Of a stretch of DNA of 64,000 nucleotides, positions 2,395 to 56,600 are shown piece by piece; position 1 is the stretch's first letter; each line of letters begins with the position of its first letter. The DNA lies in the NCBI GenBank assembly GCA_947568835.1, contig OX387610.1, positions 15,543,001-15,607,000 on the forward strand. Direction: 5' to 3'. Position numbers and translations under genes: made by a program. The stretch is from Protonemura montana. Taxonomy: Eukaryota; Arthropoda; Insecta; Plecoptera; Nemouridae. The notes under the pieces are model-generated. The model was not told the origin of the DNA. It did no database searches and was given only the letters and a program-made list of their open reading frames with translations.

Positions 2395-2405
2395 TATATA
2401 TAAAT
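2395..2405 (+). promoter_or_regulatory. Possible TATA-type core promoter in the duplicated unit
   Basis: A TATATATAAAT stretch is followed by a GC-richer leader-like segment. The same motif is conserved in copy 2 at 20243-20253, where it is preceded by an E-box-like CACGTG. No gene is recognised downstream, so this is only a candidate; AT-rich DNA yields such motifs by chance. Confidence 0.2.
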
Positions 2406-16716: not shown

Positions 16717-17478
16717 CTACTGACTGTCCTTCGAGTTTTTTCCGTCAAAACTACAGGGTTGACGACACATTTTCGCTCGTGCGCCAAACTTATGGTGATA
16801 CCAACACATACCATCCGTTAATGAACGTGGATTGGCCGGCAGTCGCACCCGATTCGATGGTCGTTTACCTGAGAGTGCTTCAATTTGGCGCGACAACTCT
16901 TCAACCTGCATTCGAAGTTGGTTGTCGTCGTTGACTACCGCTATGCGCATAGGACATGAGGCGTCCTCGTGAATCCGATCGGCGATCTCGGAGAGGGCGT
17001 CCAGGTCGTCAGGCGGCGACGCGGAAAGGACATCTCGCATCCTAATTGGCAAACGTTCGAGCCATAATATCCTTAAAACTTTGTCGGTCACTTCTTTGTC
17101 CGCTAAGCTTCGCAATTGCAATAATAATTCTGATGGTTTTCGATCACCCAACTCTTCATGTTGAAGAAGTCGCTTAATTTGAACTTCAGACGACTTCGAG
17201 AAACGACGAATAAGTTCCGATTTGAGACGTTCGTATTTGCCTGTCTCGGGTGGACTTACTATGATGTCGCGTACGGCGGTAGCATATCTGTGCTCCAGGG
17301 CACTTGCAACCTGGCAAAACTTCGTTGAATCGCTTGTAATTCCACTCAATTTGAACTGGCTTTCTATCTGAGCAAACCAAAGTGTAGGGTCTTCGATCCA
17401 GAACGATGGAATCTTGCAGCTAATTCGGTCTACCGATGCGGATTCGTTTGTAGCCATCGTAGGTCGGTTGCAAATCAC
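16717..17478 (-). CDS. Gypsy gag
   Basis: The 253-residue frame has the usual retrotransposon gag opening (IPSFWIEDPTLWFAQIESQF). A capsid-like helical body follows, and near the C terminus there is a Cys/His cluster (CWYHHKFGARAKMC) resembling a zinc knuckle. It starts just inside the primer-binding site. An in-frame TAG ends it before the LINE insertion. Gag would form particles and bind element RNA, but pol is truncated. Confidence 0.85.
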   Translation of the reverse strand: MICNRPTMATNESASVDRISCKIPSFWIEDPTLWFAQIESQFKLSGITSDSTKFCQVASALEHRYATAVRDIIVSPPETGKYERLKSELIRRFSKSSEVQIKRLLQHEELGDRKPSELLLQLRSLADKEVTDKVLRILWLERLPIRMRDVLSASPPDDLDALSEIADRIHEDASCPMRIAVVNDDNQLRMQVEELSRQIEALSGKRPSNRVRLPANPRSLTDGMCWYHHKFGARAKMCRQPCSFDGKNSKDSQ

Positions 17479-17491
17479 GTCGGGGTCACCA
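17471..17491 (-). other. Primer-binding site complementary to tRNA-Trp 3' end
   Basis: The plus strand here reads CAAATCACGTCGGGGTCACC followed by A, which is the T-arm and acceptor 3' end of animal tRNA-Trp as I know it. It is separated from the 5' LTR (17493-17694) by one or two bases. The tRNA would prime minus-strand DNA synthesis. Confidence 0.8.
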
Positions 17492-17492
17492 A

Positions 17493-17694
17493 TGTAACGT
17501 AGTACACACGAGTCGTGAACAGTTTATGTTTATTTACAAGTGTACAATATTACTTTAATATCTAATATATGAAAAGATCAGACGACAAGTCTATCCTAGA
17601 GAGTCCGAGAACCCAGTGAGTCTCCAAAACAGTTGCCCCGCTCTCTTTCTTCTCATCCACCCTGCCTGGTGGATTGTCAGAGTCAGAGTCGCCA
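17493..17694 (-). repeat. Gypsy 5' LTR (right copy)
   Basis: It matches 14652-14853 with a single visible difference (CCCAGTGAG against CCCAGCGAG) plus two terminal bases. It lies directly upstream (minus strand) of the primer-binding site and gag. Confidence 0.9.
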
Positions 17695-19419
17695 CAAAAC
17701 TAAGTTAGTAACACAAGTGATAAACAAGTTGAGTAGCTTTCATACACGAATGTCATGGGAAGACATGGTCGCAGCCGCAATAATGGTCAATAATTGTCGA
17801 GCGTTAAGTTGTAATGAAAATTGTTCAAATTGTTGTTGTTGTTAAACATTTCTATTTAACAGCGAAGAATTATTAACCTGCCACCAATTCTTTTATCTTT
17901 CCTATGATAACAATTTTTTTAATTTTTTAATTTTGGTGCCCACCAAATTCTGCCAAAAACTTATACTACTTCTTCTTCACATCCTTCTTTGGCCACTTGG
18001 ACCTGCTGAGGTCGCGCTGCTAGGATCGTGACCAACTTCACTGCAGTTGTCTGTTGAGGTCAACTAGATCTCGATTGTTCACATCGGTTCACCAAGCTTG
18101 GGCGAACTTCGAAGCTACATCCAATTATGTTTTGGTGGCAAGACGTTTCATAACTTTATCGAACACCAAAATGTTCGACACAATTGTTTCCGGTCTCTCA
18201 TCGAATCGTGGCCCCGTTTGTACGAGCAGGGCAAGGTACATATGAAGTTGTCTGTACCTCATAATTAATCTGCAGTCCGGATGGCAGGCAGTTGGACGTG
18301 TAGGTCCATTGTTTGGTCAACAACCCGCTATCTTAGTTCCTTGTATGAAGTTGTACGTCCTGACTTCTAGACTTCAACAAAAATACAACCCTGATATGAG
18401 TTGTTTTACAGACTTGGGGCAACACTTTCCCGATGAGAGCAATTATCGTTAAAATGCATTAAATTTAAATTCAGCTTTCGTCAAACAAAGCATCGGGCAA
18501 TGCAGACTCTCGGACGGAGTCATACTGCGACAGAATCAAGTCATGACCGGGCAAAGTCAGTTTCGGTGACTGTCCATCACCGATCTGTTTCGTCGGAACC
18601 ATTTTGTTCGAGGCAGAGGAGTCCCTTCGATTCCAGGAGCCACTGCAGCCGTGCATTGATCATGCGCTCGAGGTGTTTGTATGCAGCTCGTCAATGCAAT
18701 TGGCCTGTGGCTAGAAGGTTCGGACTTGTCCTTTGCAGGCTTTAATATCGGAATGATGGCAGAGGCCCTTCATTGGGCCGGGAAACAACCATGGAGCCAT
18801 ATCTTGTTCAGTAGTGTCGGAAGATATGACTAGGCTCCGGATGAAAGGTGTTTCCGATCAAAGCTAGGTGAAGTGTTATTTTTTTGCTTTCATACCACCT
18901 TATGCTTTCATCCGGAGGTTTCTGTTGGCTTTCGTACGCAACGCAACGCAATAAAATTATAATTTTGAATTTTGCCTTGGTTGCTACTGGCAACGCGTAG
19001 TGGACCAAACGCTCCAATGGCTGGACACTCTTCGACCGGTGCATGCGATTTCTCTGGACTATTTATTTAAATTAAAAATTACAAGTGAATGAACACATAA
19101 CCTAACAAATTATACTGTAAGGTGTTACTTAAAGGCTTGTTATCTTGATATAATGCGAATGCACGGGTTGAATAGCTGGCGTATGACGGATGCTTCCTTG
19201 TGGCTGTCAGATGAATGTTAGCAACACCGATGAAATCTTCGGCTTGTGTAGCGTGATGGTGGTATTGGCTCCTTCTTGTTGTATTGGTTCCATTTGTCAG
19301 CATATGCTATGGCCAGGTACGAGTACACTTTTATGGCAGGTCCTGTGCAAATAAGTCACGTCCGGCATCGAGTTGGGTTCTCTCTGTTAGACCACACGTT
19401 TCATGGCACATTATTTCCA

Positions 19420-19810
19420 GAACTGAAGTTTATACCACTTCCGTACATTCCATGGAACTGCTTAGAGTTCAGCAACTTGTACTGTACATATATTATGTGG
19501 CAATCTTTCCTTGTCAAGGCAAATTTTATATTTAAAATTTGTTAATAATTATTAAAATTTATTTTATCAATATTGCGAAATGTTCCAAAGAAGGCATGAA
19601 GGATCACTCAGTAAGATGTCAAGACCTCCGATTGAATCCTCTGCACGTCCAACTCTTCGATCTTCCATAGCTTGGCGTGATCACGGCATGCTATCATTGA
19701 GCTTGTCGACCGTGTCTCGACTAAACGCTTTCCAACATGCAAATTTACAAATCATTGGTGTATTCAATGATTTTGTCACTAATTCCAATTCATATGTTTG
19801 AGGTCCTGGC
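19420..19810. other. ~390 bp present in duplication copy 2, absent from copy 1
   Basis: Copy 1 joins the flanks directly (about 1950-1965). No target duplication or inverted ends are evident, so a deletion in copy 1 is as likely as an insertion here. No gene seen. Confidence 0.6.
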
Positions 19811-22800
19811 TCGTTTGTTTCTCGTGTAGATTCTCCAGCAACTCCTGAATCTTTTGCTTTGCAAAGCCATCTCTTTCCCTCAATGGAAACAGAGGAAACC
19901 TTTTTAAATTAGCCGAGTTTTAATAAATAATGAATATTAATTGTCATTTATTTGTCCTGTGAATCACACACATTATATTTTAAAATGCTAAGTTAATTAA
20001 CCGTATTTAATTGGTAACGTTAACAGCTTGCGGTACATGATTTACTTTCAGTCTCTTTGTACTTTCCACACATTCATATTTTACAAAGTTTTTTTATTTA
20101 AATAAATATTTATCAATAAGATATTATTTTAGCAGCCCTTGTAAGCCATGGTGCTTATGAACTGCTTATAAAACTGGTGCTCATGGCTTTTTGGTTTAGG
20201 CTCACTTTTTGTCCTAGTGTCATATGGGCGTTGTTCACGTGGTATATATAAATGCAGGGTAACGTCATTGCTGCAAATACAGTGGGGCTGATTGCACAAA
20301 TCGAAGATTCAGGTGTGACGGGGTCGGGCAAGTTGAAAATCCATCTTGTATTTTTTTTTATTGACTACTGACAAGTGCATTGCAATTGTATGGGCCTTAT
20401 ATTCTAGAAAAGAGGTAAGACCTTCGTGTCTTACTCAAAGGATTTTAATCACAATTTTTTCTCAGGCGCAAAATATTATTTGACGCGCCTATAAACCCCA
20501 CTATTTATTTAGTAAAGCATCTTGTAGCCAAGTTTGCAGACTAGAAAGTTGGGATGCATCGTTGCTTTCCTGATTGTTTGCCCCGGAAAGTGGTCATTGT
20601 GCCATCAGTTCGATTATCAACTCTTAACGAATCACAATGTTGAATACTTGCTCGTAAGAAAGCTGTGAAACACCACATCAGAGAAGTCCGGAATTCTTCT
20701 CTCGACGCAATTTGTCTCCAGTATATATGTGGTCTGACAGCTCCTGAGTGAAGCGAGTTGAAATTATGTTTATTTTCATTTGTTATTGAACTAAATTAAA
20801 TTTTTTTTGAATAGACTGTCATTTTTAAATTGAATTCTTTTTTGTTTTGCTTGTGGACCTGATAAGCCAGCTACGTTCAGTGAAGTAAGGTTCAGCAGAG
20901 TTGAACAATCCAAGTGAGACGTTGGATCTATCCATGGAATACTCTCCCTTCATGTTCTCTGCTAGCTGACTCTCCTGTTGAGTCTGACAATTTCAACCGC
21001 AGTTCTGTATTGTTCCATCGATGCTTCAAGCCGCGCGATCTTCTTGTGTGGCAAAAAGTAGCTCTTCGAGGATACCTGAGACCGCAGGTACAAGAAAGTT
21101 GAGTAAAACAATTGATTGAAAACAAAACACTGGGTCGAGCACAATTGTTTCCGAATGCTCGGTGCAGCTTTTGTAATAGCGCCATCGAACAGTATAAGGT
21201 CGATGCAAGCCAAGTGTTAAAGCAACACATAACCAAAGTTGACCAAACTTCAGAGCTTACACTTGAAGACAATCTGGAATAATCTTTGGAATATAAAGTA
21301 CATTTTCAACAAATGTTTTGAAGATTTCCGCGGCATTATACAAGCAACAGTGGTCCGATCCCCTTGGGTCATATATCGGACGTATATATTGGTCCAGACT
21401 GACGACCAGGGCACCCAGTAGAACAGGGTTGCATTAGGCACTCACTGGCGTTCGAGACACGGGACCAAGATCTCCAAGCTCCTCCGGCAATATAAATTGC
21501 CATGCCATGGCGTGTGGTGCGGCTAGCGCCTGCTTGGGACCTTCTGCATGGCCAGGCGCGGAACACAGCCTTACTCTATTGGCTTGGAAAAAATATTTTA
21601 TTTGCTGTGGCAGCGATTCTAGGTCTGAGAACACCAAGATGGTTTTTGCTGTTTTTTTTTCTAGTGCCTTGTATCTTGACATGTTTTTTGAGGTACACTG
21701 GTTCTTTGCTATCCAGCGTAGAGGTGTTTGTAAGGAGGCGTGCAATGCCAACCCAGTTTTACTATGTTCCTATTGAAAGTGCGTCTAAAATTGACATGTT
21801 TGTGAATCTACTAAGCACTACGCTTGCAGTCTTTACCCTGTCAGCCATGGACCACGATTTGTGTAACGCGCCAATATCTCGGCGCTGTCTCGTGCAGGGA
21901 TTCTCTGACATGATGATGTTGCTTCGTTAAACAGCACGCCTCGCGTGGCGCTGTCTGGTACTGCGACCATCTTGTAGACAGTCGATGTAAACGCACAGCC
22001 AGATGTAACTGGTGGACAAATCAAGTTATAAAATAATTCATAAATATACTTTGTGTTTTTTTGATGTGAATTGCTTTGCTTTTGTTTGTCGCATCTTGCC
22101 AACAACTTGGTGCGAATACAGAGAAAGCTGTCATGTTTTTGATATCAAACCTTCTTATTGGAGTTACTATTTATTTGTGGTGTTAAACGAAGCACTCACT
22201 GTTTAATTGAAGTCACAAATGTAGACATCAAAGTATCAGCGAAATTGATCTTTGTCCGGTGTTGCTTCTTCAGCTGGCACCACTGGCAGGTCTAGGTTTT
22301 GCAGTTCATGCCTAAGCTGAATAATGTTAATAAATAAATAAAAATAAATTACTACAGTTTCCTAACTTTTGTGTTTTTGACAGTCAAAACATGAGAAAAA
22401 TACACCAAATGATGCACGAAAACTAAGCTATTCACTCATAGGTAAATTGTGGAAGATGCTTTTTTGATTTCCACCAATTTTTATTAGTAGTGTCTTGCGT
22501 TTTAAAACTTATAACGTCGTGGTTCTTGGTTAGCTGTCGATTCAGTTAATTTTTGGCATACGTTTCTTGAATTTGTTTGCCCACGGTCTTGAGTTGCGTT
22601 GCAAAAATAATCAGTAACGGAAGTAGAAATTTTCTTCGGTCCCCGTTTATGATTTATTTAGGATGGATGATTGAGTTCGCGTTTAGGTGGAATACAGAAT
22701 AGTTCACTTAAAGTTTCCTTTTGCCGAAACAAGCTTTCCGGTCGTAGATTGTGCCACATCCCAAACTTCCAGAAATACCCCAGTTGTCAAGTCTGCATGC

Positions 22801-29104: not shown

Positions 29105-30125
29105 AATGTGGGCGCCCTTGTGAGAGAGAAGAGAACAAAAAGAAAGAAACAGATCGATCAAATCAGTCTAAAAATAAATGGTAACACCTTATCGGATCCT
29201 ATAGTAATTGCTAATACATTTAACAATTATTATAGAGATGCAATTTCGGCTTTAAATGTAAATGCACCTCAGAGAATCGCTACAGACAAGGGTAACAGAT
29301 TCACAAAAAATATTTTTTTGTATCCTGTTAGTGTGAAAGAAGTTATTCAAATCATAGATAAAGTGTCAAAAAAAAAATCAGCTGGTTGGGACGAAATTCC
29401 AGGACATATCTTTAAAAAAGCGGCAATATATATTGCAGGACCATTGCAATTTCTAATCAACGAATCATTTATGCAGGGTACCTTTCCACAGAGCCTTAAG
29501 AAAGCAATAATAAGCCCATACCATAAAAAGGGTTGCCAACAAACAATTGGTAACTATAGACCAGTGAGCATTAACTCGACATTCTCGAAGTATTTTGAAA
29601 CTGCCCTAAATACAAGAGTAATTGGATTCTTGGACAAGTACAATCTCATAAGCGACAGTCAACACGGTTTCCGAAAGAATCGATCAACGATCTCGGCAAT
29701 TGCAAAATGCGTAGACACGATTTTACATGCAAGGGAAAATAATCTGGTAGCGGCGGGTGTTTTCTATGATTTTACCAAAGCGTTTGACGTGATTAATCAT
29801 CAACTACTTCTGGATAAATTAAATTCATTTGGCGTATCGGGCAACGCGAATAATTGGATTCGATCCTTTTTGAACAACCGGGTCCAGGTCGTCACAATCA
29901 AGGATCAAACAGGCACAACATTTCACTCTGATGAACTCATCACTAATGTAGGGGTCCCCCAGGGAGCTATCCTTTCGCCACTATTGTTTGTCATATACTC
30001 CAACGACCTTGCAAGCACGGTGAAGTCGGGGGCAATAATACAATATGCAGACGATACAACCCAACTAATTGTTAAAGATAGGTCTCCACTAATTGATCTG
30101 GAAACAGCTGCAATGGCGCTGTCTC
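29105..30125 (+). pseudogene. LINE reverse transcriptase fragment
   Basis: An uninterrupted ~340-codon frame covers the linker and most of the RT domain: IGNYRPVSINSTFSKYFE, QHGFRKNRSTISAIAK, VFYDFTKAFDVINHQLLL, GVPQGAILSPLLFVIY and the catalytic YADD. The 5' endonuclease part is absent and the frame is cut after the palm near 30125, where unrelated repeats start. It resembles Jockey/CR1-type elements. The open frame suggests recent insertion, but both ends are missing. Confidence 0.88.
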
Positions 30126-30215
30126 AAGTGGCCGAAACGAGAAAATGACAGAGTGTGCAAGTGACCGAATAGCCTGTGCAAGTGACCGAATGTGCAGGTG
30201 GCCGAATTCGTAACC
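30126..30215. repeat. Short degenerate tandem repeat at LINE 3' breakpoint
   Basis: Three or more near-copies of GTGCAAGTGACCGAAT, with GTGGCCGAA variants, follow the point where RT similarity stops. Isolated GTGGCCGAA copies recur to ~30470. Confidence 0.55.
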
Positions 30216-31739
30216 CACCGAGTGTGCAAGTCGGTCCCACTTGACCTAAATATCCTATTCGGCCAGATGCACATTCGTTCACCTGGGCAGTATTCGGAAC
30301 GTTAATCCCGCCCATAGCTAATAATATTTCCTCCCACTGTCAGTCACTTTCGCCAACCTCACACTTCTGTTATGAAGTTGACAGAGCAAGAATTGAATAT
30401 GCAAGCATTGACCCACTCCGTCACTTGGTACCACGCTCTATTGTTGTGACCATTGGTCGAGGTGGCCGAAAGTTCACCATTAATGACCACACCTCTCTTG
30501 GCCACTTCAGCTGCGAGCACTTTTTGCTCAGCAACACTGAAGTTAGCTTTGCTGTCCTTTTTTATGCTAGTTTTCGCATTTCCGGATGCTCGGAAATAAA
30601 TGAGCGCTCAAATTTTGATGAATTGCCCTTTGCAAGTAGGCCCAGTATTAGAATCAAACCCGCCATTTCTTTTGAAAGGTCGATTCTGATTGGTTGGTTC
30701 AAGGTTGTGACGAAGTTGGTGCTTAGTTCACACTACCCAGCTGGATTTAGCCACTGATCTCAAGATTTAGCTCATACCCGCGTTAGATCTGCTTCGTGAA
30801 TTGTTCAGGGGATAAAGCAACACCTAGGGGCTAAGGTCGGACTTACTTAGCTCGGGTATTGATTATCAACTTTGACATGAGGGACCTCGGGAAAAGTGGA
30901 TTTTGGTACTACCCAGGATGATTGTTGCCAACAGCATTTCCAAGTGACTTGTTGAAGTCAACCTTTGAGATTGTATAAACAATACAGAATTTAGAATTGA
31001 ACACTATGATCTTTTAATATTACAAAATAAAATTTCACCCAGTCACTTGGAAAAACACAGTAATTCAAATCAAAACTGCAAATAACCCAAACTCTTTTTT
31101 TAAGTTAACTAGAAAAATTTATTGAAAATGACACACTCAAAATCAAGTTTAATTAATCTGTGCACACTAATAATTCAAAGAAAGGCTTGCTCTAATGTTA
31201 TTAGTAAAGTAGTTACTTTATAATGAATAAATAATAATAATGAACAACAATAACAAATATTAATAATGATAATAATAAAATATAATTGTAAGCCATAAAT
31301 CATAATAATAAAATAAAAGTAATTTACACCAGCAAAGTAAGTGTCAAAGATCAGCCAGGGAGCAAGTTACAGCAGCCGTGTCTGAAAACCTCACAAACAC
31401 AAATCAAACAATTTGTTAATTGACAACAAAGTTGGCAAAAATATGTGTTTCAATTTCAACCAATCCTGGCTTATTTGCTCCCTGAGATTCAGGTCTACAT
31501 TACCTAATTCCAATAATGATAGACTAGCACGCCAATGCTATTTTCTATATTACTTGTTGTGATTCTCAGCGCGATGTCCTCCCGGCTCAGCGTGATGTCA
31601 TGAAACAAATGTAAGGTATTAGTTTGATATCAGACAAATATTTTACCAGTTACTGTTACGCATTACCTAGACCGAGTTTATGTCAATTCTCACCTTTATT
31701 TACTCATTGCAACCATGGTTTTTTGTGAGTTGGCAGTTA
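30216..31739. other. Intergenic, no gene recognised
   Basis: A 110-residue plus frame at 30425-30757 has no recognisable domain. 31200-31320 is AT-rich with AATAAT-type simple sequence. Nothing else supportable. Confidence 0.4.
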
Positions 31740-32088
31740 GTTAAAAGCCTCACAGCCCACTCCACGGCCCCAACTCAGTGTGAGGCCTTTTTTATTTTTA
31801 CTGTAGTGCCAAAGGTTGAAGCACTCTTCTTTAATATTTAACATGGCAGAGGGAAACCATGGAGACTGCAGGTAACAAGTGCCTGAAAAGAGAAACATTC
31901 GTCATTCGTTAGCACGTGTAACCGACTCCTGTGCTCCGCAGATGGCTTAACATTTACTTTTTCCCTCAAACTATAAACGTTAATATATAACGACGTATTT
32001 AAAATATTACTACCGTCAACAATCATAGGGACGAAGTCATTGTCCACGGCGGGAAGTGCCGGCTCCGGTGCGGCAGGCACACGAGCGA
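31740..32088 (-). other. Possible alternative or duplicated 3' exons of the FLYWCH-MULE-RING gene
   Basis: Downstream of the RING exon stop there are two further acceptor-bounded open segments on the same strand. 32088-32014 (acceptor TTTTCAG, donor GTAGTA) encodes VARVPAAPEPALPAVDNDF and is phase 1 on both sides. 31882 to ~31744 (acceptor CTTTTCAG) is phase 1 and runs to a TAA after ~46 codons. The first resembles exon 6 of the gene (Pro/Ala-rich followed by an acidic MxIVD-type end). They could give an alternative C terminus lacking the RING, or be remnants of a tandem copy. Confidence 0.35.
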
Positions 32089-32223
32089 CTGAAAAGAGAA
32101 ACCAAGTCATAACAAGTCAAATTCCTCTACCTGATGGAAATATTTGTGGTTTTGTTCCAACCATAATTCAGGAAAGTTACCATAACTCAACCATAACTCA
32201 CGGTAGCAGCGAGGTAGCAACCC

Positions 32224-35200
32224 TCACAACAGTGGCAACACCAGGCTCACAATTTGCTGCCTGCAGACGTAGCAAACAATGTTGTGGCGAATGTGCCATT
32301 CGGCGCATGTGCCACACGAAACGAAGTGCCTGCAGGGCATGAACATGGTCGTTCGCCTGCGGCCCATGCAGCACTGGCACAGCTGCAGGTCCGTTACGCC
32401 CTCCACATCTTCGACTGGACCTGCGTGTGAACGACATGTTGTTAGTATTTTCATCTATCACGTTCTCCTCAGCTCAAGCCAATAGTTTGTCTCAATACCA
32501 ATTTAGTTAAGGAGCAAGGTACGTTCATACTACAACTGCAACACGTTTTTTCCGTCACGGTTGATCACGCGGACCAAACAGAAAATTGCCGTACCACGGC
32601 GGGCGGCAGTGCCGTCCGAGTTGAATCAACTTTAACTTCTGCCGTTGCCCCGGCACGGTTTCGGCCTAGAGACATGCGCAGACCACTCATCCTACCCTCT
32701 GGTCCTACCCGTTCTTGCCATTCTGTTGACGAACAGTTTGCGTACTATGTCTAATGAGCTGATTATTGCTTTGGTGGCTGATAAACCATTCATGTACAAG
32801 GTGAAACGTTCCTTGTTCAAGGATAAACCGCTGAGAATGAAAACTTGGGTAGATATTGGAGCGGAGCTGCAAATATCTGATTAGTCGCATCTTTAACACA
32901 CAGATATATCCTATTTGATTGCAATTTTAGTGTATTTTGGATTTGTAATTTTATTAAACATTTTATTTTTAGCCGAGGATGCCAATTTTTTTAAAATAAT
33001 TTGCGAGATAGGTCCATAATGACTGTTGACAGTCTGTCAGATAGTAGAAGTCATCGAGCTGTGACAATGTAATAAAAGAAAGCGCTAGTATCGCGGCTCA
33101 GTTGCCGTCTGACGTTTACCGTCGGACTCTGAACGAAGGAAAGAAATAATTTTGTTTGCCGGTACGGAAAGACCAGCCGTGCGGCAGGCTGCCGTAGTAG
33201 TATGAACGAGCCTGTAGTCACTAACCAGAGTCAGTGTACACTAATATCGCTTACCAACTGGCGCCCTGGGCATTGCGTTAATAAACGCATCCACGTGAGC
33301 ATCGAAGATATTGACAATGCCGGCCTCCGGCTGGAAGTCATCGTCTGAAATTTTAGAAAAATTAGATATTTAAATACGGTGAAAGTGCAAATTACCAAAA
33401 AATATAATTCGATTACAATGACACAAGCAAATTACCAGAATCAATAATTTCGATTAGCATTTCTATTGGTTCGATGGTTCGATTGGGCACAGCAGGTGCA
33501 GCAGGCACGAGCGCAGGTCCGCCTAAAATATATGAATGGCATGTGTAAGTGGTCTAACCTCAGCATCAGCATTGATGGTGAACGAAAACAATTGCCTTTT
33601 ACCAATTTATTTTTGTTGAAAATGCTCAATTATTTAACGCCTGAATAACAAGTCTACCAGGTACATGATGCCCGCAGAGATTTGGCTGATATTTGGATTG
33701 TTTTAGATGTCCTATGTACAAAATTGACCACAGTTACTTCGATTAAACTTGCTGCACCTAGACAAGGCGAGATTTCTCATTCTATTTCTTTGGCCCTTCG
33801 GTGAATAGTTTCTGAGAATTGTCTCTTACCATCGTCCTCCTCGCTGTCCTCCAAGTCCACGGCATTTCTGAAGAAGTCGTCGTGGACGTTGTCAGCTGCG
33901 TGGCTGGCGACACTGAGGAACTCAGCTACTGTCACCAGACCGCCGTCCAGCCGATCGCTTGCCGTGGCAATCCTTCGGTCCTGGAGGACACTCTCGGCCC
34001 GTCTCCGGGGAAAGCGGAAAGCAGGCCCCTGCATCACAACTAGCTGGAGCCGGTGTTTATTCTCCAGCGCTTGGAGAGACGCTGGAATGTAACAAGATTA
34101 ATTGTCAATATAATAACTGAAGTTATTTGAAATAATTTTTTTTTTTTGAGGTGGCCTTACCAGTAAACATACAAATGCTGGGATTAACCACGTTAAAGAG
34201 CCCTTGCAGCATGGCATGGAAGGCCTCAACGTGGTTGTTGGTGCGGCGGGCCTGTCGATATACCGACAACCTTTCAAATCCGACCCGCCGCACCCATTGC
34301 CGCTCCATGTACGCCATTAGCGGGCGCAGTTGATCAGTCAGGCCGTGGCCAGCCAGCAACGTTGCCACAGCATCGAGGCCCTGACGCATCAGCGCTGCTG
34401 GCAGAAGCAGTAAGGCCAGCAGCATCTTCAGGGCCTTCTTTGCGGTTCCATTGGTTGTCAGCAATTGAGATTGGCCCAAGCGCTTGGCTTTTCTCAGCAC
34501 AGCCTGCAGGGAACAGACCAAACATTACACCCACAATCATACCACGATATTTAAGTTAGTTCCAAAGCACATTTTTGATGTCCTCAAAGAAATAACTATA
34601 AAAGTCAAAACAAGTCCAAAGCACGGCCAGAAGATCCTGAATCCACAGCTAAACTTAAAGCCAAACACAAAAACAATCTGATTTTGCATATTAAAGAACA
34701 ATTTCTCTTGCTAGCCAACCTCTTATAACTTGCCTGGATATAATGAAACCAACAGCCAATTGTTGGGGAGGCTGGGAACACATTTTCCATGGCCCTTTGC
34801 AGGGCAGCCTCAAAGTCCGTGACAATCACGGTTGGCGTCATGCCCGGGGCAGCCAAGTTTGCGATTACGAACCGCAGGAGCTGCTCGTAGGCAGCTGCGG
34901 TACGTCGAACCATGAGAGCGTAGACCACCGGGATTGCCTGAAGGAAGAGACCAAAAGAAGGAATGATTTCACCGAAAAATTCTCCAAGAGTAAAACTAAA
35001 GAAATAGACGATTGTCGAAATGCACATACCACGGACTGCACCATCACGTGCAGAGTAAACAGTTGGCACGCTGTCGGCCGCTGCGGCACTGCCTTGAAAG
35101 TGGCGTCCGCATGCAGCTCTGGTGATCCATTTAAAAGTTCGGCGCATGTTGCCCTCGAGGCCAGGACTACCGTCGTCCCACCCTCGCCCTCGAGAACAGC

Positions 35201-38200
35201 CTGGCACAATGGTTCCGGTACCGGGCCAAGTGTGCAGCCATATCGGCCTCGCCACTCAGCACTCCTCAGGGTTTCCCCATATTCCCTGAGGGTCTCCGGC
35301 ACTGGCGGCTGCGCAGCGGCGCGTGCCCGGCTGAGTGACGACCTCACTGACGAAAATGTAACTGAGGCTGCTGCCTCTGGATGCCTAAACAAAATGAATC
35401 ACAAGTACCTACTTTAACAGCTGCGTGACACCTGACCCGTGCATTCTATAGTAATGAACCGAACGGTTTGGCGTGTTGGAAACACCGGTTCTCGTTCGAT
35501 CACCGAAGTTAAGCAACACTGCGCTGAGTCAGGTATTGGATGGGTGACCATCATACACATGACAGTTCTGTTCGTGAGAGAGGTTGGAGGGATGAAAGTT
35601 AGTGCAGCAACTTCACTCGCCTTGCTTATCAACCTCTCGACAGCATGGATTTGTGGAGGAATCCTGCTGTTCGAGTTGTACCGTCCTTCGGAAGGGACGT
35701 TAAGCCGGTGGTCCCCTTGGTGCTTTTCGTCAGGAGTAGGCTACGTGCCTTATTTTTACATTGAAAATGGCGGAGGTTTTGAAGAAGAAGTGTCGTAGCG
35801 ACAATTTTACCTTTGAAGACACGAAAAGAATGATGAAATTGGTTAGAAAGTATGAGACAGTAATAGAATGCAAGAAAACTGACAAATTCACATGGAAACA
35901 TAAGGTAAGCAAGTACCGATAATCAAACATCTATTGAAAATAATTATGCCAGTCATTGGAGATGAAGAAAAAAGTACTGAAATTTATCTAGCAACTGAAA
36001 TAATTTGTGATAATGTTGTGCCTAATGTTGACTACACTTGGATTTGCTATTTAAGTAATTATATTTTATTAGAATGATGCCTGGAACAAACTGGCAAATG
36101 ACTTTAACTCGGGCACAAATAGCCACAAGTCAGCAGCGTCTCTGCAGTCAAAATTCAAAAACATGAAACGGGACTATCGTGTTTGGGCGGCAAAAAAAAG
36201 GCAGTCGCTGTTTGCTACTGGAGGAGGCCCCATGCAAGATATACCGCCACATCCATTTGCTGACGACATGGAGGCACTTATATCGTTGTCCACACATGGA
36301 ATCGATAATAAATATGACACCGACGGAACCTATTGTGAGTGCAAACATAATAGAATACTGAATAATTCTCAAGTACGCATACCTACCTTTGAATTTGGGA
36401 CCAAATTATCTTTTTGTTATCACGCTTGCAGTGCAGTCTGTCAAGGAAAAGGTACATGGATCCGAAGAGGAAGGTTCGGAGATCGATGAAGATCTAGCTT
36501 CGACGCCTCAGGTAAAATAAAACCCTCTCATTTTCGATTATCAAGAGTAGGTACATAGTTATGTATCTTTATTATAACTATTTATATACAAGTACAATGA
36601 AAATTGGAAAGATAAAGGAAATTCAGCTTACCAAGAAAAAATGAAAATTGGGCTGCGACAGAACTCGTAGATGTAGCCCACTGCCTTCGTTAGTTACATG
36701 AGAAGCTATTTCCTCACACACAGGTGGATGACACACAGATGGATGCTCCTCCGGATGTCGCCACGGAGCCTGTTGTGATTTGGGATGAGAGCGTTCCATG
36801 TTCCAATAATTTATCTCCAATCAATTGGTGCACTTATTCGCCAAACATGTTGAAGCAACCTTTGCATAAAGCACTGGTTGTACCAAGAGGTACTACACAT
36901 TTACATTAAGTAACATTGCAATCAGCAAGGTACTATAATCATTACATCAATTACCTTTCTACGTAGGTACTGCACCTTCAATCTCCGTTTCGGATCAGCC
37001 ATCGGGTAGCAGGCACACAGCTACAATAGGTAATCATGCATCTTTTATTTCCAACAATTAACTTTATTGTGATTTGTGAGACACATTTTCTTGATATGTG
37101 GCTCTGATATAGATCCACAGAAGCAGAAATCAATATTCAAAGCTGGAACAAACCGACCATCATTAAAAGCCTTTGCCAAAAGCAAACCTGGATCAGTGAA
37201 CGCAGACAAATATGCAGCACTTGCTGCAAAGAAACAAGAACGTGTTGCTCAAGAGATTAAAATACTGGCAGAGAATCAAAAATTGAAAGTGGAGAAACAT
37301 AAACAAGAAACCGAATGTTTTAATTTACAAATAATGAACATGAACAGTGTCCAAGCAATGTTTGAGGAGAAACATAAGAGAGAAATGAAGTTATTAGATT
37401 TGCAAATAAAATCTCAGGAGATGGATATCGAAAAGAAGAAGAAAGAAAATAAATGAAACGTCCGGCAAAGAAATCACTTTGGCTGTAATTTCACTTTCAG
37501 TGCAGATTTAAATAAATATATTGGAAATGTTGTCTGTTAATTGTTATGCGTCAAAAATTGCCTTGGCAAATTTGCAAAATTTTCACAACTGGTTTCTTAT
37601 TGAAAGAAGGAGGAAATGTGTAAACATGGAAAACCCCATGTCAAAATGTTCAATTTAGGAGAGCTTGAAAATGGTTCTGGATAAGGTTTTGCCGCATAGC
37701 CATGTCCTCATGCACTTCGGGCAGATTTTCTGGTATGATTTGATCTTGCTCAATGTTCACATCTTGGCCAAGTTCAGGATCAGGTGGAGGAAGGGCTTCT
37801 TCAGCATCGCATGCCATATTGTGAAGGACAGCTGTGGCAACGATGATGGGGAGGACGTGGTCAACACGGACCTTCATTCCAACGGACAATATGGGAAACC
37901 TCCGTTTCCACACACCATATTGTCGTTCCACTACGTTTCTGGTACGGATTTGGGATTCATTGTATAGCTGCTCGGCTTGGGTGGCAGGATTGCGGAGTGG
38001 AACTAGCATGTAATTGCTAGAAGTGTAACCGGAGTCTCCAAGGATGAAGCCACCATTCATCTCTCCTCTGTCAAAACGGCCCTTAACTGCCGAATTGTTA
38101 AATATGGTTCGATCGTGAGTTGAACCAGGCCAGCGGGCCACAATATCCATAATTCGAAGATTTGGAGCAGAAATAGTTTGGACGTTTATTGAAAACAATC

Positions 38201-40649
38201 CCTTTCGATTCCTGAAAGTTTCGGCCTGGTCACCACCTGGATTGTGATATCATAAAGAATCAAAGATAAGTAAATAGGATTGCTTAAACTTACTGGTAAG
38301 TGGGGATGAAACTGTTTCGGAATGTAAGTGTAGCATTTGTGATAGATAACGTAACTACCTACCATGCAAAGCACGTCTTATAATACCAAGAGCAATGCTA
38401 GGGAAGCAAGACTGCAAAATGTAAACTTTACTAACCATTATCTACTTTCTATGCTTACTTACTTACCTACTGATTGTATCTTGATATGGGTGCAGTCTAT
38501 CACGGCTACTACTTTTGGAAACCTTGCGATGGCGTAAAACTTCTGCTGTAACTCTTCAAACTCCTCGGGAGTTGCTGGGAAACGTATCACATCACGGCCC
38601 AAGCTGGCTATAGCTGCGGTAACTTGATGAATAATGACGCATGCTGTGGATTTGGTTATTCCTGCAAAATCCCCAATGGCAATCAACATAGTTCCTAATG
38701 CATAAAACCTTAAAGTCAACAAAAGACGATTTATAGGTGACACTGCATAGTTAAAATCGGAAGGTGCCGAAATTTCAGCTTCAATTTGGTTCAGCAATTG
38801 CAACACAGTAGGCTTGGTTAGGCGAAACCGAATAAAAAATTCTTCGTCGTTCCAAACGTTGAAATTGTCTGGTCGGGGACGAATTCTTCGTGCTGCTCGT
38901 CCACCCGCTGCAATGTTTGCCATAATCTCGTCTTCTTCATCAGACTCATCGTCTGTCACACCATACATGTTGAATCAGCTACAAGACAGTAACAGAATAT
39001 TACTTTACTTCCAGTCTTGACAGAAGCCCACATAGGCAGTAGAGAACTAGAAATCTTTAGATATGCCAAGACTGGCAATAACGATAGATTTATTATCATG
39101 TAATAATGTCATATATTACCTGTCTTGCTATCAGCATAGAAAAATAAGCCTTCAGACTTCAAACAAACATCAGTAAAGTTCACAAAGCAAATTGGGCGTG
39201 AGGTCTGTGTCATATGCCAAACGGACAAGTGTCAACACCAAATGGGAGGTTATGTATCACTCTTTACAAATGGCGGTATTCTTTCGAACACGGAATTAGG
39301 ATTCCAGATATCTTTCTTGATTCACGGTGATTAATTAAACACTTGCACTGGTTTTTAAAGCGTCAATAATTTTTATTTCACTTGCAAACATTTGATGTGG
39401 TGTATGTCAACCTCGAGTTATCTCTCTTGAGCGCCAGTCGAAGTACGAGTTAAGACAACTCAGAGTTGGGTGGCCAACTCCAAGTTAAAAATAATGGTAA
39501 AACGCCTAACTCCCAGTTTTAACCTAAATCGAACTTTAAGTCTCAGATAGGAGAACTGGTAAAACCGGGCCTAAGATAAAAGAGCGACTTTAAGCCGTCC
39601 CATGGCAGCACGTTCGGTTGGTCACTTTGACTTTGAGTCATTTATTTTTATTTTTTAAGACACTTCACAAATTATCCAGATGTTAGATGGTGTGAGACCG
39701 ATACGAAACAAAACGCGCACCACCATCAAAAGCTGGTCTAGGACTGACTCAGCCTCGTGTGAACGAGGCTGAAAAACACAAAAAAAACTCACAAAAAACA
39801 ACAAAAAACTCAAAAAAGTTGCAATGTTCTCTTCATGCTAAATGGTCGAACCACGATAACATGATGGATGCACGTGACGTGACGTAGGCTTTGGAAGGGA
39901 AGAAATCAGAAAACCCCCAATCATCGCAGATTCACCCTTCCCCTCCGTGAGAGAAATGTGTGTCTTGCGGCCTTCAGACCTGATCATTGTTGTTGACATC
40001 TTTCGATTCTGACAACAATGTTATCTAAGAAAGGCTTTTGCAGGTAGTCGAATGCGAATCTAATCTGTGCATTATACTGATTTACATTCGACAGGAACGG
40101 CAACAAACGAATATTGTTGAAATATGTACAGTTACCTTGAAAGTTCCCAACAATGGTACTCGTGACCGTGAACGCGTTCTTTTTAAAAAGTTCCCACCCA
40201 ACACTGTATGGTATCAATTACAGTTTGTTTCAACAATCGGGACATTATGAACATCTTATTGGACATCTTATTATGGACATTATTTATCTGACCGATAAAT
40301 AATAGCAAAGAAGATTTGCATTAAATTCAGAGCTCACTCACCTCACACATTCCTCGTCAAAAATACGCTGCATGGAAATGGCCTCCGTGGCCACTCTCCT
40401 CTTCACGCTGGCCATGAGAAGCGCGACCTCTGCCTGGACAGGCACAGGCTCGTAGTTGTGCACCCCGGAAATCGTCATGAGGTTGGTGGCTCGTGCCACC
40501 ACCCCCGTAACGCGACACCCACGTTTCCTAAAGAACTGACACCGGAGATGTTCCGCGGTGTCAGTTTTTTTGTTTACATTGAAAACAAATCCACTGCTAT
40601 CTACAATTAGAACACCTCCACGTTGAGACGAAATACGGTCTACCTCCAT
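32224..40649 (-). CDS. FLYWCH - MULE transposase - RING finger fusion gene, eight exons
   Basis: Exons: 40649-40342, 35384-35030, 34937-34734, 34503-34161, 34081-33830, 33522-33436, 33344-33255, 32420-32224. Phases agree at every junction and no stop interrupts the 611 codons. Introns are GT-AG except intron 3 (GCAAGT...CAG). Residues ~10-67 form a FLYWCH-like zinc finger (C37, C45, H64; the last His is Tyr66). Residues ~190-403 are a MULE core: D196 in HADATFKAVP, D262 in IVTDFEAAL, CWFHY at 283-287, E382 in RRTNNHVEAFH, so a DDE triad is present. Residues 404-546 are an acidic, Pro/Ala-rich linker. Residues 561-599 are a complete C3HC4 RING (C561, C564, C576, H578, C582, C585, C596, C599), closest to the IAP/MDM2 style but lacking the usual CP.C proline. 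FLYWCH plus MULE is a known pairing; the RING is not one I recognise. Transposon or co-opted host gene is undecided; no terminal inverted repeats were found. Confidence 0.85.
32517..33213. mobile_element. Harbinger-derived non-autonomous element in intron 7
   Basis: Termini AGGTACGTTCATACTAC (left) and the complement of AGGCTCGTTCATACTAC (right) are inverted repeats ~700 bp apart and nearly fill the intron between exons 7 and 8. Inside, ATG at 32747 starts an open segment (ELIIALVADKPFMYKVKRS, KTWVDIGAELQIS) that matches the first half of a MADF DNA-binding domain, a usual partner protein of PIF/Harbinger elements. No target duplication was clear. The element is an internal deletion derivative. 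Confidence 0.6.
35440..35757 (+). mobile_element. SINE with 5S rRNA-derived head
   Basis: 35472-35552 matches the interior of metazoan 5S rRNA, including CACCGGTTCTCGTTCGATCA, CCGAAGTTAAGCAACACT and TTGGATGGGTGACC, that is the internal pol III promoter elements (A box to C box). The 3' third of 5S is replaced by unrelated sequence. At 35676-35752 is a block (CCGTCCTTCGGAAGGGACGT, TAAGCCGGTGGTCCC, TCAGGAGTAGG) that I recall as a conserved domain shared by many invertebrate SINEs. A full 5S gene is excluded by the missing 3' end. It abuts the Harbinger Myb-like gene. Confidence 0.7.
35767..37456 (+). CDS. PIF/Harbinger accessory protein, Myb/SANT-like
   Basis: Six exons: 35767-35904, 36073-36334, 36432-36511, 36724-36889, 36967-37029, 37113-37456. 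All have GT donors and AG acceptors, phases agree, and the total is 350 codons with no stop. Residues ~10-85 form a trihelix/Myb-SANT-like domain (FTFEDTKRMMKLVRKYE, TWKHKNDAWNKLANDFNS, LQSKFKNMKRDYR). TGGGP follows, as in NAIF1-type Harbinger partners. The last ~115 residues are Lys/Glu/Gln-rich and probably coiled coil. In this superfamily the Myb-like protein carries the transposase to the nucleus and to the element ends. It converges on the transposase gene at 37650-38968 with ~190 bp between stops. Confidence 0.85.
37650..38968 (-). CDS. PIF/Harbinger DDE transposase (HARBI1-like)
   Basis: Two exons, 38968-38467 and 38236-37650, with a 230 bp GT-AG intron. Joining restores SVGGDQAETFRNRKG, the expected family block, giving 362 residues without a stop. 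Residues ~35-150 are the helical N-terminal region. The catalytic residues appear as D158 (VVAVIDCTHIKIQ), D235 (GDSGY) and E271 (RNVVERQYGVWKRRF), with 35 residues between D235 and E271 as usual. The tail is acidic. Start ATG at 38968 precedes an acidic stretch (DDESDEEDE). With the Myb-like gene this makes an apparently autonomous element lying in intron 1 of the FLYWCH-MULE-RING gene, antisense relations included. Confidence 0.92.
39480..39574. mobile_element. Right terminus of the Harbinger element
   Basis: Sequence ends GGTAAAACCGGGCC at 39571 followed by TAA (39572-39574), which fits a Harbinger end with its TWA target site. A matching GGCCCGGTTTTACC left end was not found upstream of 35767; the SINE at 35440-35757 occupies that place. 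The left terminus therefore appears lost or displaced. Confidence 0.5.
39575..40335. other. Rest of intron 1, no gene
   Basis: Contains a 10 bp stem hairpin (TCAGCCTCGT-GTGA-ACGAGGCTGA) at about 39750 and A-rich sequence after it. No coding signal recognised. Confidence 0.4.
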
Positions 40650-40780
40650 GGTAACAAGTGCTCTGTAGGAAAGATAAGACCCAACTGATTGACGACTAAC
40701 TACCCCACACGAACTATGCCAATCGCCAATCTCTGCGCTCTTCTGATTGGTCAGAATTAGGGTTGCAAAACGTACCGCTT
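40650..40780 (-). promoter_or_regulatory. CCAAT-rich promoter region of the FLYWCH-MULE-RING gene
   Basis: Within ~100 bp upstream of the ATG the minus strand carries CTGACCAATCAG and two ATTGG (inverted CCAAT) motifs (GAGATTGGCGATTGGC). This is an NF-Y-type cluster with no TATA box. It is consistent with a host-like TATA-less promoter, but there is no transcript evidence. Confidence 0.35.
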
Positions 40781-40985
40781 ACGGCGGGGCAGTACCGCTT
40801 TTCACTCAAAAGTCGGCGGGACTTTTCAGTCCCACGCTCGATGGTAATTTTCTTTTAAAAAATCGCAAAATCGCAAAATCGAACATTTGATTTTAAATCG
40901 GAGTGCCGATTGCTGAGAAGCAATGTATAATGATACCGATGTGATAATATATAGTATATCAGTATAGTCATATCGATATGACTAT

Positions 40986-41011
40986 CGGGTGAAGGGGGTG
41001 GGGAAGGGGGT
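40986..41011 (+). other. Potential G-quadruplex
   Basis: Four runs of three or more G (GGG, GGGGG, GGGG, GGGGG) within 25 bp, ~340 bp upstream of the fusion gene start. Confidence 0.4.
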
Positions 41012-41572
41012 TGTTGTGTCATAAGGCGAAAAACATTGAAACAATTTCAATACTCTCGCTATGCTTTGTCGTCGCTGTTTGGCAAAGCTTAGCCTTGCTA
41101 TCGCGTAGCGTAATCATAATTATGAGCTAGTGTATTTGGCATTTATTTTTCAGAATGATAAGATTCTGTGAATGCTGAATGCCATTGCCAAATAAAATTT
41201 TCCCTAACACGTAAAAATAACGTGTGTTTCTTGAATTTAAATGTAGAGTAGACCATACTTCTCCCGGAATGAGTGATCGACGTACATTATTGCAAGAAAA
41301 GGTGCAAATCAATGGAATTAGGACCTTTTCTATTAACTTATATTAGGAACCATCAAACGCTTGCTTGCAAGACAAACATTTCCCAATTTCTGTGGTGAAA
41401 ATATATTTTCTAGATGCTGTTCTGCAGGTAGAGGGCTCGTAGCTATCTCCTGTTTCATCTGCTAAGTGAATTTAGTGGATACAATTAACTGTCATGATAA
41501 CATGGATCTAGTACGAGGAAGCATTCATTACTACATACCCATGTTGTGTTGCTAATATTCCGTTTCGTAGGC

Positions 41573-45120: not shown

Positions 45121-45600
45121 TATAGTTTTTATTCCACAAGAACACAGTGTGTCATACAGGAAAGTCATAACAAAACTCATTTACATCGCACCAATTCCAC
45201 TCATTAGTCATCACATAATCATCCATTTAACATTACGTTTTATCTATTTACACATGAAGTTGTGATAAGAAATTCGTCAATGTCATGAAAACAATGTTCA
45301 ATAAGATACGTCTTAAGACTACGTTTAAAATCTTTTCCACTCTTCTCTTTCAGCTCGGAGGAGAGAGCGTTATAGAATAAACAGCCTGCATAGACTGGAC
45401 CTTTTTTAAAAATAGATATATTTGGTTTTTCAAGCCTATATTGGCATTTTTGCCTGGTAATACAAGAATTCAATTTAGTCTTGACTAGGCTCTGGTCATT
45501 AATTACAAACATTATCGCATTAAAAATATATAGTCTGGTGAGGGTCATTACTTGAAAACGTTTAAATAAAGGTCTGCACGAGTCTTTGACTTAAAGATTT
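45079..45600 (-). mobile_element. LINE 3' end with TTA repeat tail
   Basis: The minus frame 45548-45240 has the ORF2 C-terminal signature (LYIFNAIMFVINDQSL, GPVYAGCLFYNALSSELKE, FKRSLKTYLIEH). It is followed by a short UTR and an (ATA)n tail at 45079-45121. It is 5'-truncated and lies just downstream of the tnp2-like pseudogene on the same strand. Confidence 0.75.
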
Positions 45601-53643: not shown

Positions 53644-56600
53644 ATGTGTGATGACGATGTCGTTGCATTGGTGGTCGACAACGGTTCGGGAATGTGCAAG
53701 GCCGGATTCGCTGGGGACGACGCACCGAGCGCTGTTTTCTCGTCTATTGTCGGACGGCTTCGCCATCAGGTAAGAGTGCGGTTTTGTTCTTCGAATTTTT
53801 CAAAGTTGTAGCAAACTTATTTTAAATTTCTTGGATAGGTTTCTCGTTTATAGTCATCCGCAATTTTAGTAATTGGTGGCGTTTCGTCAAAAAGTAGAGA
53901 ATGCCACGCTATCCGCGTACTTTTCTCCCGAAATGCGATAGAGGCACTAGAGGCAGAAAACTGAAAAGTATGTAAATAAAGAAATGTGTTACATTGGCGG
54001 TTGATCAAGCTGACCACAGAGCCATCCAGCCTACGACATCTTCAATTTTATTAAGGTGGCGTTTCGTCCTCTTTTTATTTTTACATTATCAAGCTTGTGT
54101 CTTTTATGGTAAGCCAAATCAAAATCTGGATATTTGTCAAAAATAGAAAATATAAAAATGTGGTATTTCTTAGGGGATGAACATAAAGTAGTTTTTGTGT
54201 TTGGGGGTGTAAAATAATAGGACGTGACGTGCTTTTCTTCCTTTGACAAATCGGCATTGGCCACATAATTAAGTGAAACATTTTGATTTAAGTAATTTTT
54301 TCGGGGTTGTTCCCGGATAGTTTCTCGGTGCAGAGTCTCTTTCTCTTTGTGAAAACAGAGAGTGCCTCTGTGGTGTTCATAACAAGTGGTTACAATTTCA
54401 ACTTGAGACATCGCCAAAGAACCAAATTTCTGTTTTAGCCAGTTAAACAACGACACAGTCTATCAACTAAACTATTAAAAATAATCAGTTTCTCCAAATA
54501 CGAGATCGATTGCAATTGGGACTTGAATGTTTACAGGGTATTTGGTTTTTTCTAGAGTGTCATGTTCGGCATGGGCCAAAGAGACAGCTTCATTGGGGAC
54601 GAGGCCCAAACCAAACGAGGCATCCTCACCATAAAATACCCCATCGAGCACGGAATCGTCACCGATTGGGATGACATGGAGAAGATCTGGCACCACACCT
54701 TCTACAACGAACTACGAGTGGCACCTGAAGAGCACCCCATCCTCTTGACCGAGGCTCCCTTGAATCCCAAGGCCAACAGAGAAAAGATGACGCAGGTGAG
54801 CTCAAACTTGACATCCTGCGAGCGTGGCGAGTCCACAGAAACAGTCAATAAATTATCCCTCGCATTGAAATTCCCACAACCTCTCGTGATTATAAATTCT
54901 TCCAATTGTAGCGATACTCGGGAAGGTGTGGTGGCAAAGAGACGAAATAACCAGCACGGAATCAATGTGAGAACACAAAAGTTATCGATCAGTCCAAATA
55001 ATACAGCAGTGGATCGAGACAAGCTCTATCACGAACGCCGGCTGAGGGACGGCTGTCTTCTAGTCGGTCCCATAGCCTCAAACCGACAGGTAGTCGATAC
55101 CCTCAATCGTTACACAATCTAAATATCTCTCTTTGATTTTGGAACAGATGTTCACATGCATACAAGTGGCTACAATATGCTTCTTCTGAAATTATTTATA
55201 ATTACGACTGCAATATTCTTTTAAGAACCTGTCTCTAAAGTTACGGTGCTAAAACATGCGTTGAAGATGTGGCGGTGCTCTTTTAAAGTCACAGCCAGTT
55301 TCCAATCCTTTAATAGGCTTGTGTGGGATCACCCGACTTGCAAGTCCACACACATCAACCGGGCTACGTAGCTGCGACTGGATACTCGACTTGAAATATA
55401 ACGGTCGTGGTCTAATGGGGTTTGCAGATCATGTTCGAGACCTTCAACACTCCGGCAATGTACGTCGCCATCCAAGCCCTTCTCTCCATGTACGCTTCCG
55501 GTCGTGGCTCCGCTATCGTCCTGGACTCAGGAGACGGCGTGTCTCACATTGTTCCCATTTATGAAGGTAACTTGAAAACTGCGGCTGAGGAACGTCGAAT
55601 ATTTATTGAGATTTCAGCGCCGTTTTGGGACACTGATTAGTGAGGCTAGTAGCACCTGAAATTCATTTCAGCAGGTATCTGCTGAGCAGCAAAAAGGTCG
55701 GACGAAATTGCTATGTTTTTTTAATCACTGCGTTCAGTGACTTACTACAAAATTTAAAAATATGCCACTTTCTCATCTGTGCGGTCCTTTAAAAACTCGT
55801 TTGGCTTCTTCCCCTTCCCATTTTGTGTTGGCCAATGATTGTAGCTCTGCTTTGATAATATAACAGCTTAGGAAAAGCATTCCACCAAAGTCTTAGAATC
55901 TGTGCACTGACGATATTGTTTTGATTCTAGGCTATACTCTCCCACACGCCATCCTGCGTCAGGACCTTACCGGCCGAGACCTAACCGACTACCTGACGAG
56001 GATCCTCACCGAGCGCGGATACTCGCTCACGACGACTGCCGAGCGGGAAATCGTCCGCGACATCAAGGAAAAGCTGTGTTACGTTGCGTTGGACTTTGAG
56101 CAAGAAATGGCCACCGCTGGGTCTTCTAGCTACCCGGAGAAGTCCTATGAACTTCCCGATGGACAGGTGAGAAGAGTTGGGAAAGTTGGGAAAACTGACT
56201 TCAAGCACTTGGATATCTTGGTTTTACTTTGGAAGCACATTTGGCATGGATGGAAAAATTATAGGGGTGGAGACTTATATTTTGAAATTAAAAAAATATA
56301 AGCAACCAATATCAAGTTCCCCATATGAACTTGGTGGCTACCTCCCATACTTACAGGTGGCTGTCGTTTGTTCTAGGTCATCACCATTGGTAGCGAACAA
56401 TTCCGTTGCCCGGAGGCACTGTTCCAGCCGTCGTTGTTGGGAATGGATTCGTGTGGCATCCACGAGATGACTTACAACTCCATCATGAAGTGCGACGTAG
56501 ACTTACGTACACACCTGTTTGCTAATACGGTGCTCTCCGGCGGTACCACAATGTATCCAGGTGAATTGAACTTCGCTAGTTTACTTGCACGATGGATTTG

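Follow-up and report, generated by a model that had tools for sequence, protein, structure and literature searches.

In the 64,000-nucleotide stretch of Protonemura montana DNA analyzed here (hereinafter the window), a spliced gene on the minus strand codes for a MULE transposase with a RING finger at its C-terminus. The gene is a member of a multicopy mobile transposon family, not a single-copy gene; it has homologs in aphids that extend from the N-terminal finger to the RING, and selection has retained the RING in its lineage. It adds a further, well-preserved example to the MULE–RING fusions already on record and does not found a new protein type. In the interpretation that we consider the most probable, the enzyme is a MULE transposase of the Ghost-like kind whose C-terminal RING is ancestral and would act as an E3 ubiquitin ligase on the transposase itself, its complex or chromatin.

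Gene model and domain architecture

Splicing the eight minus-strand exons in the window yields 611 codons and a stop codon without any internal stop, thereby reproducing the in-phase reading frame with D196, D262 and E382 that the first-pass annotation had proposed. Exon 1 (40342–40649) supplies the start codon and a FLYWCH-type zinc finger, with C37, C45 and H64 and with Y66 replacing the last His; exon 2 (35030–35384), the pre-catalytic region and the first catalytic Asp, D196 (35105–35107); exons 3 (34734–34937) and 4 (34161–34503), the MULE core with D262 (34815–34817) and E382 (34225–34227), respectively. They are followed by the post-catalytic region and the beginning of an acidic linker in exon 5 (33830–34081), the linker of exon 6 (33436–33522; 87 nt in the window copy), the acidic linker of exon 7 (33255–33344) and, in exon 8 (32224–32420), a C3HC4 RING finger, a hydrophobic C-terminal tail and the stop codon. 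The splice sites had been described as consensus; six of the seven donors are GT, and the exon 3 donor is GC both here and in four other copies (L019, L021, L022 and L023). The gene model is more than a chance assembly of open frames, because other copies hold the same exons in the same order and an aphid protein is colinear with the product.

When the product was compared to Pfam, the MULE (PF10551; E = 7.8e-12; 45.9 bits against a cut-off of 27.6) and RING (zf-C3HC4_3, PF13920; E = 8.7e-10) profiles exceeded their cut-offs, and the FLYWCH profile (PF04500; E = 0.011; 16.4 bits) remained below its cut-off of 23.6. The RING is complete as had been claimed, with all eight ligands in place (C561, C564, C576, H578, C582, C585, C596 and C599). 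The earlier description of the FLYWCH finger as intact is wrong for the window copy: the four-ligand C2H2 set is broken by Y66 at the position of the last His, and this accounts for the weak score. In the comparison of this residue across seven mapped copies, four of which are readable at that codon, all four (L019, L021, L022 and L023) have His. The same exon exceeds the Pfam cut-off in L019 (24.0 bits) and L023 (34.3 bits). The family does possess a FLYWCH finger, although that of the window copy falls under the cut-off; with one zinc ligand missing from its finger, this copy may no longer be fully functional.

In the transposase core, D196, D262 and E382 form a DDE triad that is invariant among three aligned sequences. 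Its equivalents in the aphid protein P0001, compared across 24 sequences, are the nearly invariant D95 and D160 and the invariant E278. No RAG-type family was found among the Pfam matches of the window protein at E-values up to 1, and a RAG1/Transib core was rejected, given that Pfam assigns the region to MULE. An AF2 model of P0001 has most of its core (approximately residues 31 to 370) above a pLDDT of 70, but the model is poor in the RING and around the catalytic Glu; the best match of this core in the PDB is the ISCth4 transposase (E = 1.9e-5), at TM-scores of only 0.27/0.38. Modeling exon 8 alone with AF2 from a single sequence gave a weak structure (pLDDT 68.6), and a Foldseek comparison of it with the PDB matched no RING. 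A search of a phage collection also gave no match.

A multicopy transposon family under selection

The genome contains at least 54 matches to the MULE domain, counting all MULE families (25 of the 54 on contigs C5 and C11), and at least 122 exon-level matches with identities down to 27%, both numbers being lower bounds. The RING exon has 20 matches, 14 of which, by a count made by hand, lie on the same strand as a MULE-exon match and at most ~5.2 kb downstream of it, the other six not being downstream of a MULE match; the finger exon has only seven. Another copy, L019, has all eight exons, is open over 709 codons and uses the same splice sites as the window copy; its exon 6 measures 381 nt against 87 nt in the window on account of a 15-bp coding minisatellite of ~23 units. 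Three older copies (L021, L022 and L023), ~81% identical over the MULE block, display the exons in the same order with stops or frameshifts; the RING has lost two ligands in L022 and is cut short in L023. More distant are L031 and L032, whose RING is 62% identical and whose MULE pieces, where matched, are 42–50% identical; their N-terminal exon weakly matches the finger exon (25%; E = 0.02), and Pfam recognized no finger in L032. In L053, whose MULE pieces are 31–34% identical, a finger-like exon scores 17.5 bits, below the Pfam FLYWCH cut-off, whereas the RING is above its own, and the post-MULE segment and the RING are within one open frame. No match covers the part of L053 that would hold the second catalytic Asp, so this copy is apparently damaged.

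As far as it can be bounded, the element occupies 30115–41043 on the minus strand, this being the region shared, with gaps, with L019 (DNA identity 97–98% over the three main blocks, falling to 93% over the one at the 5′ side); its 3′ end is sharp and its 5′ end provisional. The 3′ end is formed by a terminal sequence and a 16-bp minisatellite (30115–30207, minus strand; plus-strand sequence GGCGCTGTCTCAAGTG...), with approximately two repeat units called at 30175–30207 in the window and ~18 in L019. At 30115 it cuts sharply into a LINE that the loci L051 and L052 carry uninterrupted at this point. The terminal sequence is common to L019 and L020, with differing flanks, and a genome scan that tolerated one mismatch found it at 12 places, compared with three for the reversed control. 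The remainder of the interrupted LINE was not found beside the element, apart from an 83-bp, 71% match (45505–45587), so that the 5′ end is provisional and a clean insertion only putative. The uninterrupted LINE copies gave no sign of the element’s other flank, and a DNA search for the 5′ end mostly matched another, abundant repeat. With the 5′ end thus provisional, the search for terminal inverted repeats (TIRs) in the element as bounded returned none, the best similarity being at noise level, and that for target site duplications (TSDs) of 8–11 bp at its ends none that was convincing.

Several insertions and other features are nested in or adjoin this element. A 4.45-kb part of intron 1 (35678–40129) is missing from L019; it includes a nested transposon, presumably of the Harbinger type, with a DDE_Tnp_4 frame (37650–38249, minus strand) and a Myb/SANT frame (36073–36489, plus strand). 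A 5S-related repeat that matches L031/L032 over 35457–35749 continues across the breakpoint in the window, whereas L019 has it truncated; on this ground an insertion into the window was rejected, and L019 has probably lost the segment. Within the same intron, 35458–35577, on the plus strand and thus opposite to the gene, exceeds the Rfam threshold for 5S rRNA; the presence of related copies at other loci suggests a 5S-derived SINE. Intron 7 has a MITE-like insertion (32522–33228) with imperfect inverted repeats (32517–32540 and 33190–33213), which is present in the window and L019 and absent from L020. As the coding sequence of L020 is nearer to the window than that of L019 (Ks 0.029 versus 0.074), this points to recombination or excision at the insertion. 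Past the stop codon, 31841–32116 (minus strand) resembles the exon 6 region of L021–L023, which may hint at a rearrangement of the 3′ part. The element also holds, 1.6 kb beyond exon 8, an open frame for a Myb/SANT-like DNA-binding domain (30362–30607, minus strand; PF13873, E = 1.5e-8), only the first half of which matches L019 and L020, with a diverged relative in L025/L028 (46%); it is possibly a second gene or a remnant.

Elsewhere in the window, nearly identical open frames at ~1–4100 and 17450–21930, ~17.5–17.8 kb apart, suggest that a repeat unit has been duplicated. On the plus strand, separate frames at 54556–55122 and 55897–56697 code for parts of actin (PF00022, E = 1.8e-24, for the first; the others by eye), and these could be either an intron-bearing gene or a broken copy.

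The strength of selection was estimated from copies of this one genome as dN/dS by the Nei–Gojobori method with bootstrap intervals. Between the two lineages the overall values are 0.14–0.18: 0.18, 0.18 and 0.16 for the window against L021, L022 and L023, and 0.16, 0.16 and 0.14 for L019 against the same three copies. For the RING exon they are 0.09–0.19, that is, 0.15 (0.06–0.30), 0.17 (0.08–0.36) and, over 31 codons, 0.09 (0.02–0.26) for the window, and 0.17, 0.19 and 0.09 for L019. In these comparisons of the window and L019 with the B copies, decay of the latter after insertion pushes dN/dS upward, and Ks in exon 1 is near saturation (>1.2). It is from the low between-lineage ratio in the RING exon that the retention of the RING by selection follows. 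Among the B copies themselves the overall ratio is 0.66–0.95 with intervals that include 1, and the same is true of deleted copies (0.77 for the window against L024; 0.56 for L024 against L025). Closer comparisons give 0.22 (0.13–0.38) at a Ks of 0.074 for the window against L019 and 0.31 (0.09–0.83; 371 codons) against L020; for the RING exon alone, the window–L019 value of 0.82 derives from just 1.5 synonymous and 4.5 nonsynonymous changes, too few to be informative.

The first-pass annotation had left room for a co-opted host regulator. A single-copy domesticated gene is rejected by the multiple copies in the genome, some of them decayed. What could still be envisaged is that the window copy and L019, having descended from a MULE–RING element, have been retained as host regulators. 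The low dN/dS between these two, the lack of a detected TIR or TSD, and a DNA-binding finger that is altered next to an intact catalytic triad would be in keeping with this. However, this genome has many copies, ranging from near-identical to decayed, and the window, L019 and L020 have a common sharp 3′ end in different surroundings. Hence, with a full-length open copy at L019 and a 3′ end that cuts into a LINE, we do not favor co-option and consider it improbable; a mobile family explains the gene better.

Relatives in other species and the role of the RING

With the core of P0001 as query, 23 proteins were recovered including P0001 itself, whose domains were tallied from precomputed assignments. 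Both MULE and RING are present in 11 of them (P0001, P0004, P0006, P0007, P0008, P0010, P0011, P0012, P0014, P0020 and P0021), all from aphid or adelgid species; three have the RING only (P0013, P0016 and P0022) and eight the MULE only (P0003, P0005, P0009, P0015, P0017, P0018, P0019 and P0024). The last, P0023, has no precomputed domain, and hmmscan places a MULE in it just over the cut-off. Like the window protein, those of Aphis craccivora (P0021 and P0001), Macrosiphum euphorbiae (P0011, P0014) and Adelges cooleyi (P0010) combine the MULE and a C-terminal RING in one chain, but they are only ~30% identical to it, and by eye the RING subtypes of P0007 and P0011 differ from those of P0001 and P0021. 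We take these database entries to be automatic gene predictions. The Aphis craccivora protein P0021 is colinear with residues 16–585 of the window protein, i.e., from finger to RING (29% identity; E = 2e-73). Its N-terminus and that of P0020 are FLYWCH-like, below the Pfam cut-off; Pfam found no FLYWCH in P0010, P0011 and P0014. In the Pinctada protein P0002, FLYWCH and MULE are listed and the RING is absent. A protein search with the alignment A1 as query returned the same two proteins as the first protein search. One of the aphid MULE proteins without a RING, P0009 of Semiaphis heraclei, for which Pfam lists only the MULE, has a C-terminal part that by eye resembles Ulp1-type cysteine proteases.

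These alignments bear on whether the RING and the transposase are parts of one gene, as first annotated. If the RING exon came from a separate neighboring gene, the join to exon 8 would be an annotation artefact, and the description of Ghost in M. cerasi as two ORFs, one for the RING and one for the transposase (Dupeyron et al. 2019, PMC6446971), could be cited in its favor. Against this, exon 8 is in phase and is colinear in other copies, L053 has the post-MULE segment and the RING in a single frame, both domains occur together in 11 of the 23 database proteins, and P0021 aligns through the RING. We therefore rejected a separate RING gene, which we hold to be highly improbable, and retain the single fused gene.

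A FastTree phylogeny of short cores assembled from tblastn pieces places eight rows from this genome in one clade (local support 0.95) and 18 aphid rows in another (0.99), with RING bearers in both. This fits a MULE–RING fusion that would predate the split of the two clades, though repeated gains may also have produced it. The tree covers neither L033 (chimeric), L022, L023 and L028, L002, L035 and L037 (low coverage) and L001 (no match) nor the partial P0013, P0016 and P0022. The rows of L019 and L021 keep intron read-through letters, and this may be why L019 groups with L021 against the DNA identities.

With regard to biochemical role, the nearest solved structures to the RING are those of RNF123 (3e-6), XIAP (4.8e-6), BIRC3 (1.9e-4) and MDM2 (2.1e-4). 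The hydrophobic tail after it stops 12 residues past the last Cys; in the IAP and MDM2 RINGs such C-terminal tails serve dimerization. Among 16 RING rows from 14 loci, all eight ligands are kept in nine (one with an internal stop), and 13 extend as far as the Arg that follows the last Cys, which we take to help activate the E2–ubiquitin bond; 12 of these have it, and only the degenerate L037 does not. The solved relatives, this Arg and the hydrophobic tail are together the basis on which we predict an E3 that acts on the transposase or its complex. On the other hand, lineages A, B and C have a Cys immediately before the second RING Cys, at a position that in IAP RINGs is presumably a hydrophobic E2 contact. 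This would be easier to understand if the RING were a structural zinc module for dimerization or protein contacts that selection has kept without any ubiquitin-ligase activity: the RING was assigned from its sequence, the IAP and MDM2 RINGs dimerize, and the signal of selection on exon 8 would be identical. A purely structural module is nevertheless harder to reconcile with the rows that keep all eight ligands, the near-constant Arg and the naming of its closest relatives of solved structure as E3 ligases; we regard it as rather unlikely, though as a serious contender.

On the preferred reading of an active E3, the N-terminal FLYWCH finger would probably recognize the DNA of the element, and the RNase H-like DDE core would cut and join DNA. 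The C-terminal RING, of the RNF123/IAP/MDM2 type with its hydrophobic tail, would be an ancestral part of the enzyme and not a recent accident; it would most likely recruit an E2 and, perhaps as a dimer, serve as an E3 whose substrate is the transposase molecule, other members of its complex, or the chromatin where insertion takes place. Such ubiquitination might set the level of the enzyme or help disassemble the complex, much as can be envisaged by analogy with the separate RING of RAG1, which is, to our knowledge, the E3-bearing recombinase of tested activity.

Comparison with known systems

The first-pass annotation had regarded the RING fusion as new. This claim has to be given up in view of the 11 MULE–RING proteins, the colinear P0021 and the RING ORF of Ghost published in 2019. 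The three-part FLYWCH–MULE–RING fusion was found in no published paper, in a literature mostly outside subscription journals. The closest described relative is the MULE clade named Ghost by Dupeyron et al. (2019): in Myzus cerasi a RING ORF lies beside a truncated transposase ORF, no TIRs or TSDs were detected in the aphid element, and its zinc finger is listed in the table as SWIM (PMC6446971). Ghost shares with our element a Mutator-type transposase accompanied by a RING and, with the 5′ end of ours provisional, the failure to find TIRs or TSDs, but differs in having two ORFs, a truncated transposase and SWIM, whereas the window has one spliced gene with FLYWCH, MULE and RING; the likeness is drawn from the published description (RING, no TIR/TSD) and not from sequence (PMC6446971). 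Two further comparisons come from the same source. The Phytophthora MULE ‘37_Pi’ is likewise listed with a C3HC4 ring finger, as a table entry only, and is from an oomycete and belongs to another group (50). Phantom MULEs, compared here by description, have FLYWCH in some members and, in aphids, a minisatellite after the transposase ORF, which recalls the one at the 3′ end of the window element; unlike the latter, they have no RING listed in the table (PMC6446971). What the window adds is an extension of the 2019 note: in place of a RING ORF accompanying a shortened transposase of Ghost, there is now a full intron-bearing gene, which points to the RING as the transposase’s own C-terminal domain and shows that selection has kept it.

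Outside the MULEs, the parallels are RAG1 and the RING-bearing Chapaev elements, in which a DDE transposase also carries a RING (PMC4411706). The RING of RAG1 reportedly has E3 activity toward RAG1 and further proteins, with histone H3 as a substrate according to a cited title (PMC4411706, PMC9099191). RAG1, however, belongs to another transposase superfamily and has its RING on the N-terminal side; its fusion and that of the window family are convergent. The statement by Kapitonov and Koonin (2015), as worded in the passage concerned, that a RING is encoded in no transposable elements beyond those discussed there (PMC4411706) is contradicted by Ghost and the window family. We put forward tentatively, as a fair possibility short of being probable, the stronger proposal that a whole MULE lineage in animals bears at its C-terminus an ancestral RING that works as an E3 and without which transposition fails, as a case independent of RAG1 and Chapaev. 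If true, such a second, unrelated E3-bearing family would allow a direct approach to the question of why ubiquitin ligases are acquired by transposases.
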